A stretch of DNA of 36,101 nt from Acidobacteriota bacterium (GTDB taxonomy: Bacteria; Acidobacteriota; Vicinamibacteria; Vicinamibacterales; UBA2999). The stretch's first letter is position 1. Each line of letters starts with the position of its first letter. The stretch is from positions 1 through 36,101 of the forward strand of contig SHUG01000015.1 of the NCBI GenBank assembly GCA_009694735.1, written 5' to 3'. The notes under the pieces were generated by a model that saw nothing but the letters and a program-made list of their open reading frames with translations, made no database searches and was not told where the DNA came from. Positions 10,018 through 17,755 of the stretch are shown here, one piece after another. A program made the translations under genes and the position numbers.

Positions 10018-11736
10018 GTGAAACACCTCACTCTCTCCGCCACCGCTCTCAGTGTCGCTGTTCTGAGCGTTGCCCTGACCGTTGCGCAAACCATCCAGCC
10101 TGCCACCCTCGTGCTGCGGAACGGCAAGGTCGTGACCGTCGACGCCGCGATGCCCGAAGCCCAGGCGATTGCCATTCGGGGCGACCGCATCGAGGCGGTT
10201 GGAACCAATGACAGCATCCAGCGATACATCGGGCCCGCGACCCAGGTCATCGACTTACGGGGACAGCTCGCCATCCCCGGCCTGATCGAAAGTCACGGGC
10301 ACTTCATGGGACTCGGGCAGTCGAAGATGACGCTCGACCTGATGGACGTCAAGAGCTGGGACGAGATCGTTTCGATGGTGGCGGCGGCCGTCAAACAGGC
10401 CCAGCCCGGTGAGTGGATTGTCGGGCGCGGCTGGCACCAGGAGAAGTGGAGCAGTGTCCCCAAGCCCAACATCGAGGGCTTCCCGTTTCACGACGGGCTG
10501 AGCAAGGTGTCGCCGAACAACCCGGTGTTGCTGACGCATGCCAGCGGGCACGCGTCGTTCGTGAACGCCAAGGCGATGGAGCTCTCGAACATCACTGCGG
10601 CGACCCAGAATCCGTCGGGCGGCGAGATCCTGAAGGACGCGGCCGGGCGGCCGATTGGCCTGCTGCGCGAGACTGCCTCGGGCCTGGCGAGCCGCGCGCT
10701 CGACGCCTGGCGTGCGAAGAAGACCGCCGAAGAGCGCGATCTGGATGCGCGCCGCCAGGTTGAGCTGGCCGCCAGGGCGGCTCTCGAGGCTGGCGTCACG
10801 AGCTTTCAAGACGCCGGTTCGAACTTCAACACCATCGACCTCCTGAAGAAGATGGCGGCGGAAGGCAAGCTCGGCATTCGACTGTGGGTCATGGTGCGCG
10901 ACAGCAACGACAACATCCGCGCGAAGTTGCCGCAGTACAAGGCCGTGGGCCTGAGCGACAACCATTTGACGATCGCCGCGATCAAGGTCGTCGCCGATGG
11001 TGCGCTGGGCTCGCGAGGCGCGTGGCTGCTGGCCCCGTACGCCGATTCGGCCGCGAGCGTGGGACTGCCGACCAACTCGCCCGAAAGTATTGCCGAGACG
11101 GCGCGGATCGCCGCCGACAACGGCGTGCAACTGTGCACGCATGCGATTGGCGATCGCGCCAATCGCGAGACGCTGAACGTCTACGAGCGCCTGTTCAAGA
11201 CTCGTCCCGACCTGAAAGACCTGCGCTGGCGAATCGAGCACGCCCAGCACATCAGCGCCGCCGACATCCCGAGGTTTGGACAGCTCGGCGTCATCCCGGT
11301 AATGCAGGCAATCCATGCCACGTCCGATGCGCCGTACGTGCTGGCGCGCCTCGGCGCGCAGCGCGCTGAAGAAGGCGCCTATCCGTGGCAGAAGCTGATG
11401 AAGAGCGGTGCCATCATCGCCAACGGCACCGATGTGCCGGTCGAGCGCATCGACCCGATGGCCAACTTCCACGCCACGATCACCCGCAAGACGAAAGACG
11501 GCGCGGTGTTCTACGGCGATCAGAAGATGTCGCGCGCCGAGGCGCTGAAGTCCTACACGTGGAACGGCGCGTTCGCCGCAAAGGAAGAGACGTTGAAGGG
11601 CTCGCTCGCGGCGGGCAAGCTCGCCGACATCACGGTGCTGTCGAAGGACATCATGACGGTGGCGGAGGATGAGATCCCGTCGACGACGGTGAGTTACACC
11701 ATCGTGGGCGGGAAGGTGGCGTACGAGCGGCAGTAG
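10018..11736 (+). CDS. Exported amidohydrolase-3 family protein, YtcJ-like (572 aa)
   Basis: The signal peptide (residues 1-24, ending TVAQ) is followed by the amidohydrolase small beta domain (LVLRNGKVVTVD, residues 31-42). The TIM-barrel metal ligands are H93 and H95 (SHGHF), a histidine in CTHAIGDRA, IEHAQH and the late aspartate in NGTDVPVE. The long KVVADGALGSRGAW segment is typical of the amidohydrolase-3 group, which includes N-substituted formamide deformylases and YtcJ. Zinc-dependent hydrolysis of an amide-type bond in the periplasm is expected, but the natural substrate is unknown. The GTG start gives the correct signal peptide and lies 6 nt after a TATCAT box. An in-frame ATG at 9886 lies inside the amidase gene and is rejected. 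The gene runs in the same direction as the amidase and may act on related compounds. Confidence 0.85.
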   Translation: MKHLTLSATALSVAVLSVALTVAQTIQPATLVLRNGKVVTVDAAMPEAQAIAIRGDRIEAVGTNDSIQRYIGPATQVIDLRGQLAIPGLIESHGHFMGLGQSKMTLDLMDVKSWDEIVSMVAAAVKQAQPGEWIVGRGWHQEKWSSVPKPNIEGFPFHDGLSKVSPNNPVLLTHASGHASFVNAKAMELSNITAATQNPSGGEILKDAAGRPIGLLRETASGLASRALDAWRAKKTAEERDLDARRQVELAARAALEAGVTSFQDAGSNFNTIDLLKKMAAEGKLGIRLWVMVRDSNDNIRAKLPQYKAVGLSDNHLTIAAIKVVADGALGSRGAWLLAPYADSAASVGLPTNSPESIAETARIAADNGVQLCTHAIGDRANRETLNVYERLFKTRPDLKDLRWRIEHAQHISAADIPRFGQLGVIPVMQAIHATSDAPYVLARLGAQRAEEGAYPWQKLMKSGAIIANGTDVPVERIDPMANFHATITRKTKDGAVFYGDQKMSRAEALKSYTWNGAFAAKEETLKGSLAAGKLADITVLSKDIMTVAEDEIPSTTVSYTIVGGKVAYERQ

Positions 11737-11759
11737 CCCGGCCGGGTGCGTCTTGCCCC

Positions 11760-11787
11760 TTGATCTTCGCCAGACTTTCGCTATAAT
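11760..11787 (+). promoter_or_regulatory. Promoter of the imuA-imuB-dnaE2 cassette
   Basis: TTGATC (11760-11765) and a perfect TATAAT (11782-11787) are 16 nt apart. Transcription would start near 11794, giving a leader of about 23 nt with GAGGTGAG before the ATG at 11817. The -10 box forms the spacer of the palindrome at 11774-11796. Confidence 0.72.
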
Positions 11788-11796
11788 GGCGAAAGT
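11774..11796 (+). promoter_or_regulatory. SOS-type candidate operator over the imuA -10 box
   Basis: ACTTTCGC-N7-GCGAAAGT is a perfect 8-bp inverted repeat whose 7-nt spacer is TATAATG, so the -10 hexamer lies exactly between the arms. A protein bound here would block RNA polymerase. ImuA-ImuB-DnaE2 cassettes in other phyla are usually LexA-controlled, so a LexA-type repressor is the first candidate. The half-site does not match the CTGT, GAAC or GTTC half-sites of well-known LexA groups. Confidence 0.68.
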
Positions 11797-11816
11797 TAAG
11801 CGAACCGAGGTGAGAT

Positions 11817-12677
11817 ATGGCCGTCCGCGCCACCGTAGAAGCCCTGCTCCGAGAGCGAAAACTCGACCGTACCCTCACCTCGGCCATACCCGAACGCCTG
11901 GGCGAAGACGCGGTGTCGCCGCTTGATGTCGAGGCACTGGACCGCGGACTCGCCGGTGGCTTGCCGCGCGGGCAGGTGTCTGAAGTGGTGGGGCCGGCTT
12001 CGTCTGGTCGTACGGGATTGCTTTGGGCCGCGCTGGCTGCCGCCACCCGCCGTGGCGAATCGGTAGCTCTCATTGACACTTTCGATCGCTTCGATCCGCC
12101 TACGGCGGCGGCGTGCGGCATCGTGCTGCCGCGCCTGCTCTGGGTGCGCGGCCAGGCGGTGTCGAAAACCGCGGTGGCCATCGATCCGGCGTGGCTACCA
12201 GGCGTACGCGCGGTCAATGGCCCGGGCACCTTTGTGGAGCGCGTGATCGATCGCGCGATCAAGTCGCTCAACCTGGTGGTGCAGTCGGGCGTATGCACGC
12301 TGGTCGCCATCGATCTGATCGATGTGCCAGCCACGGCGCTACGACGATTGCCGCCCGCCACCTGGTTCCGCATCGAGCGCGCCATCGAAGGCAGCGACAC
12401 GGCCGTCGTCATTCTCGCGGCCCAACCCGTGGCCCGCAGCAGCGGCGGGCGTTCGGTCATGATGGGATCCAGTCGGCGGGGTTCGGCCGTTGGAGAACGC
12501 GGATCCCCGATCCCGGATCCCGGATCCCGGATCCCGGATCCCGGTATCACGTGGAAAGGCGACCACGACCGTTCGCGCCGCTTGGGCGGTGTTCGCTCTG
12601 GCGCGGCCGTCTCGGCGGCCCGGTGGTCGCACGCGCAGCACATCGACGTCAACACGCGCTTCGTTCACGCGGTGTAA
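11817..12677 (+). CDS. imuA: ImuA, RecA-like mutasome accessory protein (286 aa)
   Basis: ImuA proteins are RecA/SulA-related factors that work with ImuB and DnaE2 in damage-induced mutagenesis. This protein opens with ERLGEDAVSPLDVEALDRGLAGGLPRGQVSEVVGPASSGRT. The last part (residues 59-66) takes the place of the RecA Walker A loop but lacks the usual GK[ST], as is common in ImuA. A hydrophobic strand around 84-86 (VALIDTFDRF) corresponds to the next RecA strand. Near residues 227-243 the gene carries a GGATCCC-tandem insert encoding PIPDPGSRIPDPG, in a poorly conserved loop before the C-terminal HIDVNTRF strand. It is the first gene of the cassette, 2 nt ahead of imuB, and sits behind a palindromic promoter. 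Confidence 0.85.
   Translation: MAVRATVEALLRERKLDRTLTSAIPERLGEDAVSPLDVEALDRGLAGGLPRGQVSEVVGPASSGRTGLLWAALAAATRRGESVALIDTFDRFDPPTAAACGIVLPRLLWVRGQAVSKTAVAIDPAWLPGVRAVNGPGTFVERVIDRAIKSLNLVVQSGVCTLVAIDLIDVPATALRRLPPATWFRIERAIEGSDTAVVILAAQPVARSSGGRSVMMGSSRRGSAVGERGSPIPDPGSRIPDPGITWKGDHDRSRRLGGVRSGAAVSAARWSHAQHIDVNTRFVHAV
12496..12546 (+). repeat. GGATCCC tandem repeat inside imuA
   Basis: Four to five consecutive 9-nt units of GGATCCCGG type. It is read in frame as Pro/Asp/Ile-rich peptide and does not break the gene. Related tandems lie in dnaE2 (14517-14592) and between msrP and msrQ (33643-33665). Confidence 0.7.
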
Positions 12678-12679
12678 TC

Positions 12680-14140
12680 GTGTTTGCCGCGCTCTACGCC
12701 CCGTCGATCCCGGCGGCAGCCATCATTGATGTGGCGCGCGCGTTTACGCCGCGCTTCGAGCAGGTCGGTCCGCTCGTGCTGCTCGATGCCGGCGGCCTGT
12801 CGCGCTTGTTCGGTAGTCCGCAGGACCTGGGCACGCACTTGAGCGAGGCATTGACGAAGCATGGCGCCGGTGGCACTGCGCCTCGCGTAGCGATTGCCGC
12901 CACGCAAACCGCCGCAGCGTTGCTCGCGCTCGGCCGCCCCGGCCTGACGGTCGTCGAACCCGGACAAGAAGAGAAGGCACTCGCGCCTCTCAGCATCAGC
13001 GTCCTCGATCGCTATGAGAAGTTGAGGATTTCAAGCTCCAAGCCCCCCACCTTCGCCAAGGCTTCGGCGGGCGAGCAAGCCCCAAGTCCTGAGGTTGGCA
13101 GCGGCTGGCACCACCCTCACCACACGCACCAGGCCAGCCGTCCCAAGCCGCGCGCGCAAGAAAATCGTCAACTCGAGATTCTCACCAAGTGGGGCATTCG
13201 CACGCTCGGCGCGTTTGCCGCCATCGCCGGCCCCGACGTGTTCGAGCGCCTGGGCGATCGCGGCCTGCAGTGGCAGGCGCTGGCGCGTGGGGTGGATGCG
13301 CGTCCGCTGGTGCCGTGGGTGGACGAGGTCCCGTTCGAGGCGGCCCTGGAACTGGAATGGCCGATCGAAGGCCTTGAACCGTTGTCGTTCGTGCTGGCGC
13401 GGCTGTTCGAACCGTTGTCGGAACGATTGGAACTCGCCGATCGCGGCGCCGCCGCGGTCTTCACTTCGCTTCGTCTCACCACCAAGCGGGTGCACACGCG
13501 CACGTTGCCGCTGCCGGCGCCGATGCGCGATGCCAAGACGCTGCGCACGCTGGTGCTGCTCGATCTCGAAACGCATCCGCCCGATGCGCCCATCGATACG
13601 GTGCGCGTGTTCATTGAGCCGACGCCGGGCCGCGTGCTGCAGTGGACGCTGCTCGAACGCGCGCAACCGGCGCCCGAACAGGTGTCCACGCTGATCGCGC
13701 GCCTGAGCGCGCTGATGGGCGATAAGCATGTTGGCTCACCCGTCCTCGTGGATACCTGGAGGCCGGGGGGCTTTGAAATGAGTGATTTTCGATCGTCAAT
13801 TGACGATCGATCGTCGATTGCCAATCGCCAATCTGAAATTGATCGTCAATCGTCAGTCGCCAATCTGCAATCTGCCCTCCGCCGCTTCCGATTTCCCATT
13901 CCCACGCGCGTGCAAGTCCAGGAAGGCCGGCCCATTCGCGTCAATACCGATCGCCAGGGCTGTTCGAGCGGCGCCATCGTCCAGTCGGCAGGACCATGGC
14001 GCACATCGGGCGAGTGGTGGCAGGAAGGGCAGGCGTGGGATCGCGACGAATGGGATGTGGCCATGGCCGACGGCACCATCTATCGGTTAGTAGTGGAGCG
14101 CGGGGTTGGTCAGTGGTTCTTAGAGGGGATCGTCGATTAG
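12680..14140 (+). CDS. imuB: ImuB, Y-family polymerase-like mutasome protein (486 aa)
   Basis: ImuB is a Y-family polymerase homologue without polymerase activity that links ImuA and DnaE2 to the sliding clamp. Consistent with this, the first catalytic Asp region is replaced (MFAALYAPSIP). The segment that holds the second acidic pair in active enzymes reads LLDAGGLSRLFG. The fingers/thumb-like part (LTKWGIRTLGAFAAIAG, helix-hairpin-helix type) and little finger (GLEPLSFVLARLFEPL onward) are recognisable. QWTLLER in the little-finger end is a possible but unproven clamp-binding motif. The GTG at 12680 is used, 2 nt after the imuA stop; the longer frame upstream overlaps imuA. Two repeat inserts occur: an AKASAG hairpin word plus CCAAG words (residues about 118-155) and a CAATC/GATCGTC word cluster (about 367-398). 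Both are in frame. Confidence 0.85.
   Translation: MFAALYAPSIPAAAIIDVARAFTPRFEQVGPLVLLDAGGLSRLFGSPQDLGTHLSEALTKHGAGGTAPRVAIAATQTAAALLALGRPGLTVVEPGQEEKALAPLSISVLDRYEKLRISSSKPPTFAKASAGEQAPSPEVGSGWHHPHHTHQASRPKPRAQENRQLEILTKWGIRTLGAFAAIAGPDVFERLGDRGLQWQALARGVDARPLVPWVDEVPFEAALELEWPIEGLEPLSFVLARLFEPLSERLELADRGAAAVFTSLRLTTKRVHTRTLPLPAPMRDAKTLRTLVLLDLETHPPDAPIDTVRVFIEPTPGRVLQWTLLERAQPAPEQVSTLIARLSALMGDKHVGSPVLVDTWRPGGFEMSDFRSSIDDRSSIANRQSEIDRQSSVANLQSALRRFRFPIPTRVQVQEGRPIRVNTDRQGCSSGAIVQSAGPWRTSGEWWQEGQAWDRDEWDVAMADGTIYRLVVERGVGQWFLEGIVD
13039..13096 (+). repeat. Hairpin word and AAGCCCC words inside imuB
   Basis: The element CTTCGCCAAGGCTTCGGCGGGCGAG (13051-13075, given here in parts as TTCGCC-AAGGCTTC-GGCGGG) is a copy of the dispersed hairpin word. 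AAGCTCCAAGCCCCC before it and CAAGCCCCAAGTCC after it are the same words found in dnaE2. Together they encode a Ser/Pro/Ala linker (about residues 120-139). Confidence 0.68.
13779..13878 (+). repeat. GATCGTC/CAATC word cluster inside imuB
   Basis: About 90 nt of alternating GATCGTCAAT, GCCAATCGCCAATCT and CAATCTGCAATCTG words, AT-richer than the flanks and partly self-complementary (TCAATTGA, CGATCGATCG). It is read in frame as a Ser/Asp/Ile/Gln-rich segment between the little-finger end and the C-terminal domain. Confidence 0.65.
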
Positions 14141-14281: not shown

Positions 14282-17200
14282 GTGTATATAGAACTACATA
14301 CTTCATCTGCGTTCAGCTTCTTGCGCGCAGCGTCGGCGCCGGAAACGATCGTGGAGCGCGCCGCCCGGTTGGGCTACCCGGCGGTGGCGCTGCTCGATCG
14401 CGACGGTGTCTCGGGCGCGCCTCGCTTTCATAAAGCGGCGCTGGCTGCCGGCCTGCGCCCGCTGATTGGCGCCGAACTCACTCTTGTTACGCGCCGGGAT
14501 CCCTTCGACTCCGCTCAGGGCAGGCCGGGATCCGGGATCCGGGATCTTAGGACGCGCGGACCCCGGACCCCGGACCCCGGACCCCGGACCACATGGTCTC
14601 TTCCGGTGTTGGTTTCTTCCCAAGAAGGCTGGCGCAACCTCTGCCGCCTGCTCTCGCGCATGAAGCTGCGGGCGCCGAAAGGCGAAGGCGTGCTGGCCAT
14701 CGACGAGCTCGACGGCTTCACCACCGGGCTGATTGCCATGCCCGGCCGGGCGTTGTTGCGCGCCGAGCGCTACGGCGTGGGCGGATTGCTGGATCGCATT
14801 GTCGGCACGTTCGGGCGTGCCAACACCTACGTGGAACTGCAGCGGCATTTGCATCGCGACCAGGAAGACGACAACGACGCGCTGGTCTGCCTGGCCGAGG
14901 CGTTTCGCGTGCCGCTGGTGGCCACCGGCGGCGTGAGCTTTGCCACGCCCGAGGAACGGCCGCTGTTCGATCTGTTGACCGCCATTCGCGAGCACGTGCC
15001 GCTGCATCGCGCCGGCCGGCGCCTGGCGGCGAATGCCGAGCGCTATCTGAAGCCGCCCGCGCAAATGGTGCGCTTGTTCGCGGATCGGCCCGCCGCGGTG
15101 CATGCCACGCGCGATCTGGCCGATCGCCTGCAATTCCGGATGACCGACCTGGGCTACCGCTTTCCCCGCTATCCGGTGCCGGATGGCGAGACCGAGATTT
15201 CGTTCCTGCGGAAGATTGCGGAAGTGGGCGCGCGCGATCGCTACCGGCCGTTCCACGACAAGGCGCGCGCGCAAGTGGCGCGCGAGCTGGATCTGATCGA
15301 GAAGCTGCAGCTCGCCGGTTACTTCCTGATCGTCTGGGACATCGTCAACTTCTGCCGGCAGCAGGACATCCTGGTGCAGGGCCGCGGCTCGGCCGCCAAC
15401 AGCGCCGTCTGCTACAGCCTCGGCATCACCGCCGTCGATCCGGTGGCGATGGAGTTGCTGTTCGAGCGCTTCCTGTCGGAAGAACGCGGCGAGTGGCCCG
15501 ACATCGATCTCGACTTGCCGAGCGGCGATCGGCGCGAGCGCGTGATCCAGCACGTCTACCAGAAGTACGGGCAGCACGGCGCGGCGATGACCGCCAACGT
15601 CATTACCTATCGCGGCAAGAGCGCGGCGCGCGAAGTGGGGAAGGCGCTCGACCTGGACGAGGGGCAGATCGATCGCCTCGCCAAGGTGATGCACCAGTTC
15701 GAGTTCATCGATCCCGCCGACACCTTGTCGAAGAAGCTCGCCGAAGTCGGCATGGCGGCCGACGAGCCGCGGGTGCGGCACTTCGCCGAGTTGTGGCGGC
15801 AACTGCAGGACCTGCCACGTCACCTGGGCCAGCATTCGGGCGGCATGGTGGTGTGCCAGGGCGACCTGTCGTCGGTGGTACCGCTCGAGAACGCGAGCAT
15901 GCCCGGCCGCGTGGTGGTGCAGTGGGACAAGGAAGACTGCGCTGACATGGGCATCATCAAGGTGGATTTGCTGGGGCTCGGGATGATGGCCGTGCTGCAA
16001 GACACGATCCATCTGATCAACAGCGAGCAGACCGACAAGATCAGCCTTGCGTCGATCCCCGCAGACGACCCCGAGGTCTACAAGATGCTGCGCGCGGCCG
16101 ACACCATTGGCGTCTTCCAGGTCGAGTCGCGCGCGCAAATGGCGACGCTGCCGCGGCTCAAGCCCGAGAAGTTCTACGACCTGGTGGTCGAAGTCGCCAT
16201 CATCCGCCCGGGACCGATCGTCGGGCAGATGGTGCATCCCTACTTGAACCGCCGCGCGGGGCGGGAAGAGGTGATTTACGATCACCCGCTGCTCGAGCCG
16301 ATTCTCAAGCGCACGCTCGGCGTGCCGCTGTTCCAGGAGCAGTTGCTGCGCATGGCCATGGTGGTGGCAGGCTTCACCGGCGGACAGGCCGAAGACCTGC
16401 GGCGTGCCATGGGCTTCAAGCGATCCGAGCAGCGCATGCGGCAGCTCGAAGGCCTGCTGCGCGACGGCATGGCAAAGAACGGCATCACCGGAGAGGCCGC
16501 CGATCGCATCGTGCTCGCCATCACGTCGTTTGCCTTGTATGGCTTTCCTGAATCGCACGCCGCCAGCTTCGCGCTGCTGGCATATGCGAGTGCCTACTTC
16601 AAGGCGCATTATCCGGCGGCGTTCTACACGGCGCTGCTCAACAACCAGCCGATGGGCTTTTACCACCCCGCCACGTTGGTGAAAGACGCGCAGCGGCGCG
16701 GGGTGCGCTTCAATCCGATTGACGTGCAAGTGTCGGACTGGGACTGCACCGTCGACGCCGATGGCTCGATCCGGCTCGGCCTGCGCTACGTCAGGGGTTT
16801 GCGCTCCGAGGCGGGGCAGGCGATCGCCCAGCCTTCGCTCGCGCAATCACTGGCGAGCTTCGGCGCGGCAGGCCCTGATCGGTGCCTCAAATGTGGTTGT
16901 GACGATCCATCGCTTATTGAGTCAGTCCCGCAGCCCCAAGCCCCAAGTCCCGGGCCCCCGGCGCGGCAGCCGCGCTGGGGTGGAAGTCCCAAGCCCCAAG
17001 CCTTTTTCTGCAACGTCTGCTCGCATGAATGGTCGGTGGCTGCTCCACGGACCGGACGCTTTCGCAGCGTCGACGAACTGGTGCGCCGCACCGGGCTTCG
17101 TCGTGACGAGATGGTGGTGTTGGCAGAGATCGGCGCCCTCAACTCGCTGGGCCACGATCGCCGCTCGGCGCTATGGCAAGTCGAACGCGCTGTCCGCCCG

Positions 17201-17755
17201 GCCGGCGAACTCTACGAAAAGTTGGAAGAGGGAGTGGAGCAATGGGAAACAGGCCCAAGCCCCAAGCCCGGGGCCCCCGGCGCGGCAGCCGCGCTGGGGT
17301 GGAAGTCCCAAGCCTCAAGCCCTTTGACTGACATGACCGTCTCCGAGCGGCTGATCGCCGACTACTCCGGCACCGGCCTCACCGTCGGGCCGCATCCGCT
17401 GACCTTCCGCCGCCACGAATTGTCCATGCGCGGCGTGCTGCCGGCCATCGAGCTGCCGAAGGCGCGCGCCGGCCGGCGTGTGCGCACGGCCGGCATGGTG
17501 ATCACGCGCCAGCGCCCGGGCACCGCCAAGGGTTTCGTCTTCCTCACGCTCGAAGACGAAACCGGCATCGCCAACATCATCGTCCGGCCCGATCTCTACG
17601 CCGCCGATCGCCCGATCATCGTCGAGTCGTCTTTTCTGCTGGTTGAGGGCGTGCTGCAGAACCAGGACGGCGTCACCTCGATCAAGGCCGAGCGCGTGTC
17701 GAAGCTCGCCGGCCTGCCCGACAGCGCGGCGATCGACTCGCACGATTTTCACTGA
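14282..17755 (+). CDS. dnaE2: DnaE2 error-prone DNA polymerase III alpha subunit (1157 aa)
   Basis: DnaE2 is the catalytic C-family polymerase of the ImuA-ImuB-DnaE2 translesion mutasome. The N-terminal PHP domain begins ELHTSSAFSFLRAASAPETIV. The palm contains GRGSAANSAVCYSLGI, the catalytic pair in PDIDLD (about residues 406-410) and the third Asp in IKVDLLGLGM (about 561). A C-terminal OB fold (AGMVITRQRPGTAKGFVFLTLEDETG, about 1065-1095) is present. The GTG at 14282 gives the standard N-terminus. Three repeat inserts keep the frame: residues 70-104 in the PHP domain, about 884-907 and about 990-1015. The second lies between two Cys pairs (CLKCGC and CNVC) that form an apparent zinc-ribbon-like insert in a region where I expect DnaE2 to be short. 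No stop or frameshift is present, so the gene looks functional. Confidence 0.92.
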   Translation: MYIELHTSSAFSFLRAASAPETIVERAARLGYPAVALLDRDGVSGAPRFHKAALAAGLRPLIGAELTLVTRRDPFDSAQGRPGSGIRDLRTRGPRTPDPGPRTTWSLPVLVSSQEGWRNLCRLLSRMKLRAPKGEGVLAIDELDGFTTGLIAMPGRALLRAERYGVGGLLDRIVGTFGRANTYVELQRHLHRDQEDDNDALVCLAEAFRVPLVATGGVSFATPEERPLFDLLTAIREHVPLHRAGRRLAANAERYLKPPAQMVRLFADRPAAVHATRDLADRLQFRMTDLGYRFPRYPVPDGETEISFLRKIAEVGARDRYRPFHDKARAQVARELDLIEKLQLAGYFLIVWDIVNFCRQQDILVQGRGSAANSAVCYSLGITAVDPVAMELLFERFLSEERGEWPDIDLDLPSGDRRERVIQHVYQKYGQHGAAMTANVITYRGKSAAREVGKALDLDEGQIDRLAKVMHQFEFIDPADTLSKKLAEVGMAADEPRVRHFAELWRQLQDLPRHLGQHSGGMVVCQGDLSSVVPLENASMPGRVVVQWDKEDCADMGIIKVDLLGLGMMAVLQDTIHLINSEQTDKISLASIPADDPEVYKMLRAADTIGVFQVESRAQMATLPRLKPEKFYDLVVEVAIIRPGPIVGQMVHPYLNRRAGREEVIYDHPLLEPILKRTLGVPLFQEQLLRMAMVVAGFTGGQAEDLRRAMGFKRSEQRMRQLEGLLRDGMAKNGITGEAADRIVLAITSFALYGFPESHAASFALLAYASAYFKAHYPAAFYTALLNNQPMGFYHPATLVKDAQRRGVRFNPIDVQVSDWDCTVDADGSIRLGLRYVRGLRSEAGQAIAQPSLAQSLASFGAAGPDRCLKCGCDDPSLIESVPQPQAPSPGPPARQPRWGGSPKPQAFFCNVCSHEWSVAAPRTGRFRSVDELVRRTGLRRDEMVVLAEIGALNSLGHDRRSALWQVERAVRPAGELYEKLEEGVEQWETGPSPKPGAPGAAAALGWKSQASSPLTDMTVSERLIADYSGTGLTVGPHPLTFRRHELSMRGVLPAIELPKARAGRRVRTAGMVITRQRPGTAKGFVFLTLEDETGIANIIVRPDLYAADRPIIVESSFLLVEGVLQNQDGVTSIKAERVSKLAGLPDSAAIDSHDFH
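14503..14592 (+). repeat. TCCGCTCAGGG word plus GGATCC and GGACCCC tandems inside dnaE2
   Basis: CCTTCGACTCCGCTCAGGG is followed by three GGGATCC-type units and four GGACCCC-type units. It is read in frame as DSAQGRPGSGIRD and Arg/Thr/Pro-rich peptide within the PHP domain, between the TLV strand and the LPVLVSSQEG strand. Confidence 0.68.
16931..17003 (+). repeat. 70-bp AAGCCCC/palindrome element in dnaE2, copy A
   Basis: AAGCCCCAAGTCCC words flank a core with the perfect palindrome GCGCGGC-A-GCCGCGC, then GGGGTGGAAGTCCC and more AAGCCCC words. It is nearly identical to copy B at 17251-17325 but is translated in a different frame (PSPGPPARQPRWGG here). Confidence 0.78.
17251..17325 (+). repeat. 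70-bp AAGCCCC/palindrome element in dnaE2, copy B
   Basis: This copy lies 319 nt after copy A with only a few mismatches. Because 319 is not a multiple of three, it is read as PGAPGAAAALGWKSQA instead of the peptide of copy A. The same DNA is thus tolerated in two frames, which points to insertion at DNA level. Confidence 0.78.

Follow-up and report, generated by a model that had tools for sequence, protein, structure and literature searches.

A putative double LexA operator of direct repeats at the promoter of an acidobacterial imuA-imuB-dnaE2 operon

The imuA locus

The window, as we call the whole stretch of DNA which was analysed, has 36,101 nucleotides and belongs to an acidobacterium of the order Vicinamibacterales (contig SHUG01000015.1, assembly GCA_009694735.1). 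It contains three genes in the order imuA, imuB, dnaE2 (Table 1). ImuA and ImuB are assigned by position and by weak family matches which stay below the cut-off; the imuB-like frame has no Pfam match at 1e-3. About 60 bp past dnaE2, on the same strand, there is a ferritin-like gene (PF00210, 17817–18347), and transcripts started at the imuA promoter could extend into it.

Table 1. Features of the imuA promoter and operon in the window
Feature	Position	Strand	Basis
-35 element TTGATC, imuA promoter	11760..11765	+	sequence; likeness across the family imuA loci seen by eye
putative LexA box A, TTCGC-CAGACT-TTCGC, between -35 and -10, occupying the whole spacer	11766..11781	+	forward box common in family imuA promoters
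-10 element TATAAT	11782..11787	+	sequence
putative LexA box B, TTCGC-TTAACT-TTCGC (GCGAAAGTTAAGCGAA on the plus strand), directly 3' of the -10	11789..11804	-	inverted box kept in family and order
palindrome, made up of the two inner half-sites and flanking ACT/AGT	11774..11796	.	sequence; N7 form only in the window locus
imuA, RecA-like, 286 aa	11817..12677	+	Pfam RecA 2.6e-9; NCBIfam ImuA_translesion 1.7e-9, 37.8 bits, below the curated cut-off of 150
imuB-like Y-family polymerase, start tentative, frame open from 12113	12575..14140	+	NCBIfam DNA polymerase IV, weak matches below cut-off (best 5.1e-11)
dnaE2, error-prone DNA polymerase	14282..17755	+	NCBIfam NF004225, 1218 bits vs cut-off 939

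Just upstream of imuA lies the palindrome ACTTTCGC-TATAATG-GCGAAAGT, with no mismatch. Its arms enclose TATAATG exactly, as an earlier note on this DNA had stated, and this spacer contains the consensus -10 sequence TATAAT. The -10 is separated by 16 bp from the -35 element and by 29 bp from the ATG of imuA (11817). A scan of the whole 3.25-Mb assembly gives this one perfect copy of the palindrome; the next best match has two mismatches. The palindrome is flanked by two outer half-sites which the earlier note did not mention, TTCGC in positions 11766–11770 and GCGAA in positions 11800–11804. The full element, 11766–11804, is TTCGC-N6-TTCGC-N7-GCGAA-N6-GCGAA: the palindrome is formed by the inner half-sites of two facing boxes, A and B, together with the flanking ACT and AGT. 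GTTC is found only in the distal half of box B; the letter before TTCGC is C, T and T in the other three half-sites, and neither box has GTTC in both half-sites as in the alphaproteobacterial type GTTC-N7-GTTC.

As a bare 8-bp inverted repeat the palindrome is unremarkable here. The window has 24 perfect repeats of this kind with spacers of 3–12 bp (overlapping ones counted separately), and ten dinucleotide shuffles counted in the same way give a mean of 16 and a range of 9–27. The weight of the palindrome comes from its position and from the conservation of its parts.

imuA promoters in the family and the order

For the family of the window we used the 30 best imuA loci, from 15 genera, which were found by an ImuA search; partial ImuA matches in five genomes (G016, G017, G019, G029 and G034) were left out. 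The numbers of families and genera given below (g1, g2, g24, f17) are arbitrary codes. The rows G288 and L361, the latter cut by a contig end, do not enter the analysis. Boxes were counted with the pattern TTCG[CT]-N6-TT[CT]G[CTG], an inverted box being its exact reverse complement. Outside the family the ImuA search matched 90 of 95 genomes, some through RecA only, and a second set was read there, with 33 imuA promoters (13 loci and 20 further ones) that represent eight more families of the same order.

Among the 30 family loci only that of the window has the palindrome in its N7 form, and the 33 loci from the rest of the order do not have it at all. At other distances, the same arms of 8 bp are found in 9 of the 29 other family loci: 18 bp in seven of them, 19 bp in one and 22 bp in one. 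A distance of 18 bp corresponds to 7 bp plus one 11-bp turn, and in these N18 loci the left ACT is part of the -35 sequence TTGACT. The N7 palindrome is thus ruled out as a conserved unit (0/29). The earlier note had treated the 8-bp palindrome as the operator unit and proposed looking for its conservation at imuA of relatives: in the N7 form it is not conserved, while the half-site boxes are, and the operator unit is most likely the direct repeat TTCGC-N6-TTCGC instead.

The inverted box is present in 27 of the 30 family promoters (shuffle mean 0.19, max 2), the forward box in 21 (shuffle mean 0.17, max 3) and both together in 19; nine promoters have no strict forward box. Elsewhere in the order the inverted box is found in 31 of the 33 promoters (shuffle mean 0.26) and the forward box in only three (shuffle mean 0.12). 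As the forward box is rare outside the family, box A, in the spacer, was probably gained later, in or near the family, loss elsewhere being the alternative; box B, on the 3' side of the -10, is probably the older one.

The gap between the facing boxes is either 7 or 18 bp in genus g1, a difference of one 11-bp step. In other genera we find gaps of 6, 8, 13, 14, 17 and 25 bp, and a fixed helical phasing was rejected as a rule. Since the gap varies between genera, the data do not call for a contact between two dimers. In two genomes with the 18-bp gap (G005 and G007) box A is TTCGC-TTGACT-TTCGC; in the window it is TTCGC-CAGACT-TTCGC and adjoins the -10. The compact form of the window could have arisen by the loss of 11 bp between box A and the -10.

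The same repeat at lexA and recA

The gene lexA (TIGR00498) is present in 41 of the 43 family genomes. Promoters were read in 30 of these 41. All 30 promoters have the repeat TTCG[CT]-N6-TT[CT]G[CTG] (shuffle mean 0.34, max 3), a pattern whose last letter was widened after inspecting the promoters; the stricter TTYGY-N6-TTYGY is found in 23 of them. In 28 of the 30 the sequence TTG[AC] stands 1–2 bp before the box, which places the lexA repeat in the -35/-10 spacer, as in the example TTGACT-TTCGC-CTCTTG-TTTGC.

In the case of recA the repeat T[TA]CGC-TTGACT-TTCG[CT], also loosened after inspection, is found in 18 of 20 family promoters, including that of the window's own genome; the strict pattern is found in 11 of the 20. 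The two exceptional promoters have TACCC and GTCGC as their first half. Here the -35 sequence TTGACT forms the middle of the box. About 100 bp upstream of the recA box a second conserved piece can be seen by eye in genus g1, GGCGAAAGTGGTC...CCCCTAAAGTGTTGA or near it (L097–L104), and also, in a looser form, in other genera; perhaps it is a promoter of the opposite strand.

The distance between half-sites has its peak at 11 bp in 30/30 lexA, 21/30 imuA and 11/20 recA promoters; imuA coding DNA, used as a control, has this spacing in 0/30 cases. A minor peak at 7 bp in the lexA promoters (13/30) is due to their T-rich spacer. The sites vary, as it is apparent in genus g1: the second half-site of lexA is mostly TTTGC or TTTGT, and the first half-site of recA is mostly TACGC.

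LexA proteins and half-sites in the phylum

The LexA of a member of the genus aligns over its full length to solved LexA repressors. It keeps an A-G pair, which we take to be the cleavage site, and the serine of GESM and the lysine of VTLKKF, which we take to be the catalytic residues. We did not find lexA in the window's own genome, whose assembly is 86% complete. A DNA search of this assembly with the lexA of a relative and 1.5 kb on each side gave three short matches only, of 38–120 bp, which suggests a possible assembly gap.

In a sample of the whole phylum 270 of 297 genomes have a LexA match. The other 27 have none at 1e-3; 23 of them are among the 273 genomes with a completeness of 90% or more and a contamination of no more than 5%, and some lineages of Acidobacteriota may have lost LexA or may have a divergent one.

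From this sample we could use 66 lexA promoters for which coding sequence follows downstream; the recognition helix could be read in 65 cases. The loci of the order L189–L201 have too little coding sequence and were left out of the helix table. Proteins with the helix S[LV][AS]TVHKH have a TTCGC-type repeat in their own lexA promoter in 22 of 25 cases and never one of the TTCAC type. Those with the helix N[AG][VIA]xKH have a TTCAC-type repeat in 12 of 14 cases and never the TTCGC type. Counted by families the proportions are 13/16 for the TTCGC type vs 9/9 for the TTCAC type; the remaining three families have neither and there is no mixed case. The association has a Fisher p = 2e-6, a value uncorrected for shared descent and obtained with classes set after seeing the promoters. 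The other 27 promoters, one of them without a readable helix, have the TTCGC type in two cases, the TTCAC type in four and neither in 21; several show other 11-bp repeats by eye.

The half-site, TTCGC or TTCACC, appears thus to go with the recognition helix of LexA across the phylum, a link for which few evolutionary changes may be responsible. Of all the evidence, this covariation speaks most strongly for LexA itself as the reader of the site.

Specificity and other candidate targets

The repeat alone is too unspecific for predicting a regulon. In six genus members TTCGCN6TTYGY has 36–66 matches per genome, 1.4–2.6 times the backward control, and it was rejected as a genome-wide predictor. 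When a -35 sequence is added and one mismatch allowed, the counts stay near the backward control in several of nine genomes. A matrix built from 23 lexA boxes ranks box B 6th and box A 9th in the window; it over-weights the spacer and was also rejected. The boxes of the window are singled out only by their position and conservation.

We looked at 20 further matches of the pattern: about 13 lie inside likely genes, as judged from open frames. The rest include the promoter of an efflux adaptor (L236), a radical-SAM gene (L231) and three sites in a conserved, apparently non-coding stretch.

The efflux gene codes for an RND-type periplasmic adaptor (NCBIfam TIGR01730, over the cut-off). A forward box is found in 14 of 22 family promoters of this gene: 8/8 in genus g1 (L340–L346, L353), 4/5 in g2 (L348–L350, L352), 2/2 in g24 (L354, L357) and 0/7 in the others. 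The boxes start 32–64 bp upstream of the aligned start. If LexA reads them, the efflux operon would fall under SOS control. In the window's own assembly the adaptor has no match at E 1e-60.

Before the radical-SAM gene the repeat has the orientation of box B, GCGAA-N6-GCGAA, at 3 bp from its start in L231 (contig 100 of G000, the window's own genome) and at 36 bp in L129 (G003, contig 3). A piece of 110 residues of its product matches the NCBIfam Rv2578c family with 1.1e-23, which stays below the cut-off. Both loci were found through the pattern and are therefore not independent evidence. The LexA regulon described for Balneolaeota includes a radical SAM protein (PMC7739468). The third case is a conserved, apparently non-coding stretch of about 200 bp which ends in TTCGC-N6-TTCG[CT] in three genus members (L229, G000 contig 89; L234, G003 contig 8; L248, G004 contig 6). 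It has no Rfam match.

Interpretation of the element

We consider it very probable (about 0.88) that direct repeats TTCGC-N6-TTYGC form here a double LexA operator of the operon imuA-imuB-dnaE2, giving derepression upon DNA damage, because the same repeat is also found at lexA and recA of relatives. A site shared by lexA, recA and imuA of related genomes was the support for which the earlier note had suggested looking, and it is found in 30/30, 18/20 and 27/30 promoters respectively. Its proposal that the palindrome might be the LexA box of this lineage is thus very probably right with respect to the site. Its other proposal, that a bound repressor would cover the -10 of the mutasome promoter, agrees with the two boxes that flank TATAAT.

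The LexA of this lineage would read the direct repeat TTCGC-N6-TTYGC with a period of 11 bp, which puts both half-sites on the same side of the DNA. Each box would be bound by one LexA dimer, and the two dimers together would span the promoter from the edge of the -35 to about +10. With box A in the -35/-10 spacer and box B reaching to about +10, they would exclude RNA polymerase. After DNA damage RecA filaments would induce the self-cleavage of LexA and the operon would be freed. We infer LexA binding, the presence of two dimers at once, repression and induction from the sites, their conservation and their presence at lexA and recA. The double box should make the imuA promoter tighter than those of lexA or recA.

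A different damage regulator, for example of the XRE or WYL type, could read this operator and control lexA and recA, while LexA reads something else. The failure to find lexA in the window's own genome would fit such a regulator, which we judge unlikely. The site is present in all 30 family lexA promoters read, between the -35 and the -10, a place at which one expects an autorepressor to bind. Furthermore, in the 22 families with a box and either helix type, the letter of the half-site changes with the helix of LexA, so that any second regulator would need to have changed along with LexA.

It is still less likely that the palindrome itself is the operator, with a symmetric repressor bound as a single dimer to ACTTTCGC-N7-GCGAAAGT. 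The perfect 8-bp arms of the window and the same arms 18–22 bp apart in 9/29 family loci would agree with it, but the N7 form is absent from the 29 other loci, the left ACT of the N18 loci belongs to the -35 TTGACT and the gap between the facing boxes varies from 6 to 25 bp. An inverted partner accompanies the direct repeat in just 2/30 lexA promoters and 0/20 recA promoters.

A chance repeat or an RNA feature such as a terminator or leader hairpin, suggested by the abundance of such repeats in the window (24 vs a shuffle mean of 16), is hardly credible: the half-sites are conserved across genera and families, the first arm lies upstream of the start site expected from the -10 (about 11794), so that the RNA would lack it, no run of T follows the palindrome and there is no Rfam match in positions 11500–12100 of the window.

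The element provides a candidate SOS box for Vicinamibacterales, a route to predicting the damage regulon of a group in a phylum described as abundant but rarely characterized (PMC8852301). Within one phylum the LexA helix and the operator letter have changed together while the 11-bp architecture was kept; this offers a natural experiment on the way in which LexA alters its site, a question posed by the large number of LexA motifs known (17 in the count of PMC8565304). From the two facing boxes at the mutasome promoter one would expect a tight control of mutagenesis. We put forward more tentatively, at somewhat below even odds, that an 11-bp-phased direct repeat was the ancestral LexA code of much of Acidobacteriota. 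Its half-site would have switched between TTCGC and TTCACC together with the helix. In one family a facing copy would have been gained at the mutasome promoter, two dimers clamping the -10 and restraining mutagenesis until LexA is nearly gone. If this is true, the state from which the alphaproteobacterial box arose would be identified as well.

Comparison with known LexA systems

We know of no experiments on the LexA of this acidobacterial group. One of the closest known cases is in the same phylum, probably in a different class: Mazon et al. 2006 are said to have found GTTCN7GTTC as the LexA box of Acidobacterium capsulatum, whose recA reportedly has no LexA box. In contrast, recA is boxed in the family of the window, and the half-site is TTCGC both here and in 4/4 lexA promoters of family f17, which we provisionally take to be Acidobacteriaceae.

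Among the matches listed for the open-access literature, none gives a LexA box for Vicinamibacterales or describes TTCGC-N6-TTCGC as a LexA box. The work of Mazon et al. 2006 on the A. capsulatum box is cited among direct-repeat LexA motifs in PMC7739468 and is also referenced by PMC3323433, PMC1978210 and PMC3789691.

LexA motifs vary widely among bacterial groups: PMC8565304 counts 17 reported by 2021, among them direct repeats GTTC-N7-GTTC. Direct-repeat reading by LexA is held in PMC7739468 to have arisen independently several times. The Balneolaeota repeat TTACACATATTTTWTACATA given there is likewise a case outside Alphaproteobacteria, but it has another sequence and comes from another phylum.

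The cassette itself has a known counterpart. A LexA-regulated imuA-imuB-dnaE2 cassette (PMC6511836) has the same gene order and the SOS control expected here, but the operator sequence and the facing double arrangement around the -10 are different in our case. In Caulobacter imuA is among the SOS genes studied, and about 97% of the SOS promoters are reported to have a single box (PMC12700426), whereas here imuA has two facing ones.

The alphaproteobacterial box GTTC-N7-GTTC (PMC8565304, PMC12700426) is also a direct repeat with an 11-bp period and a TTC core. It differs by its half-site: GTTC there, TTCGC here, where the leading G is not required. As the 11-bp architecture and the TTC core are kept and the GTTC half-site is not, we regard the putative operator of the window as a variant of the known direct-repeat LexA boxes.
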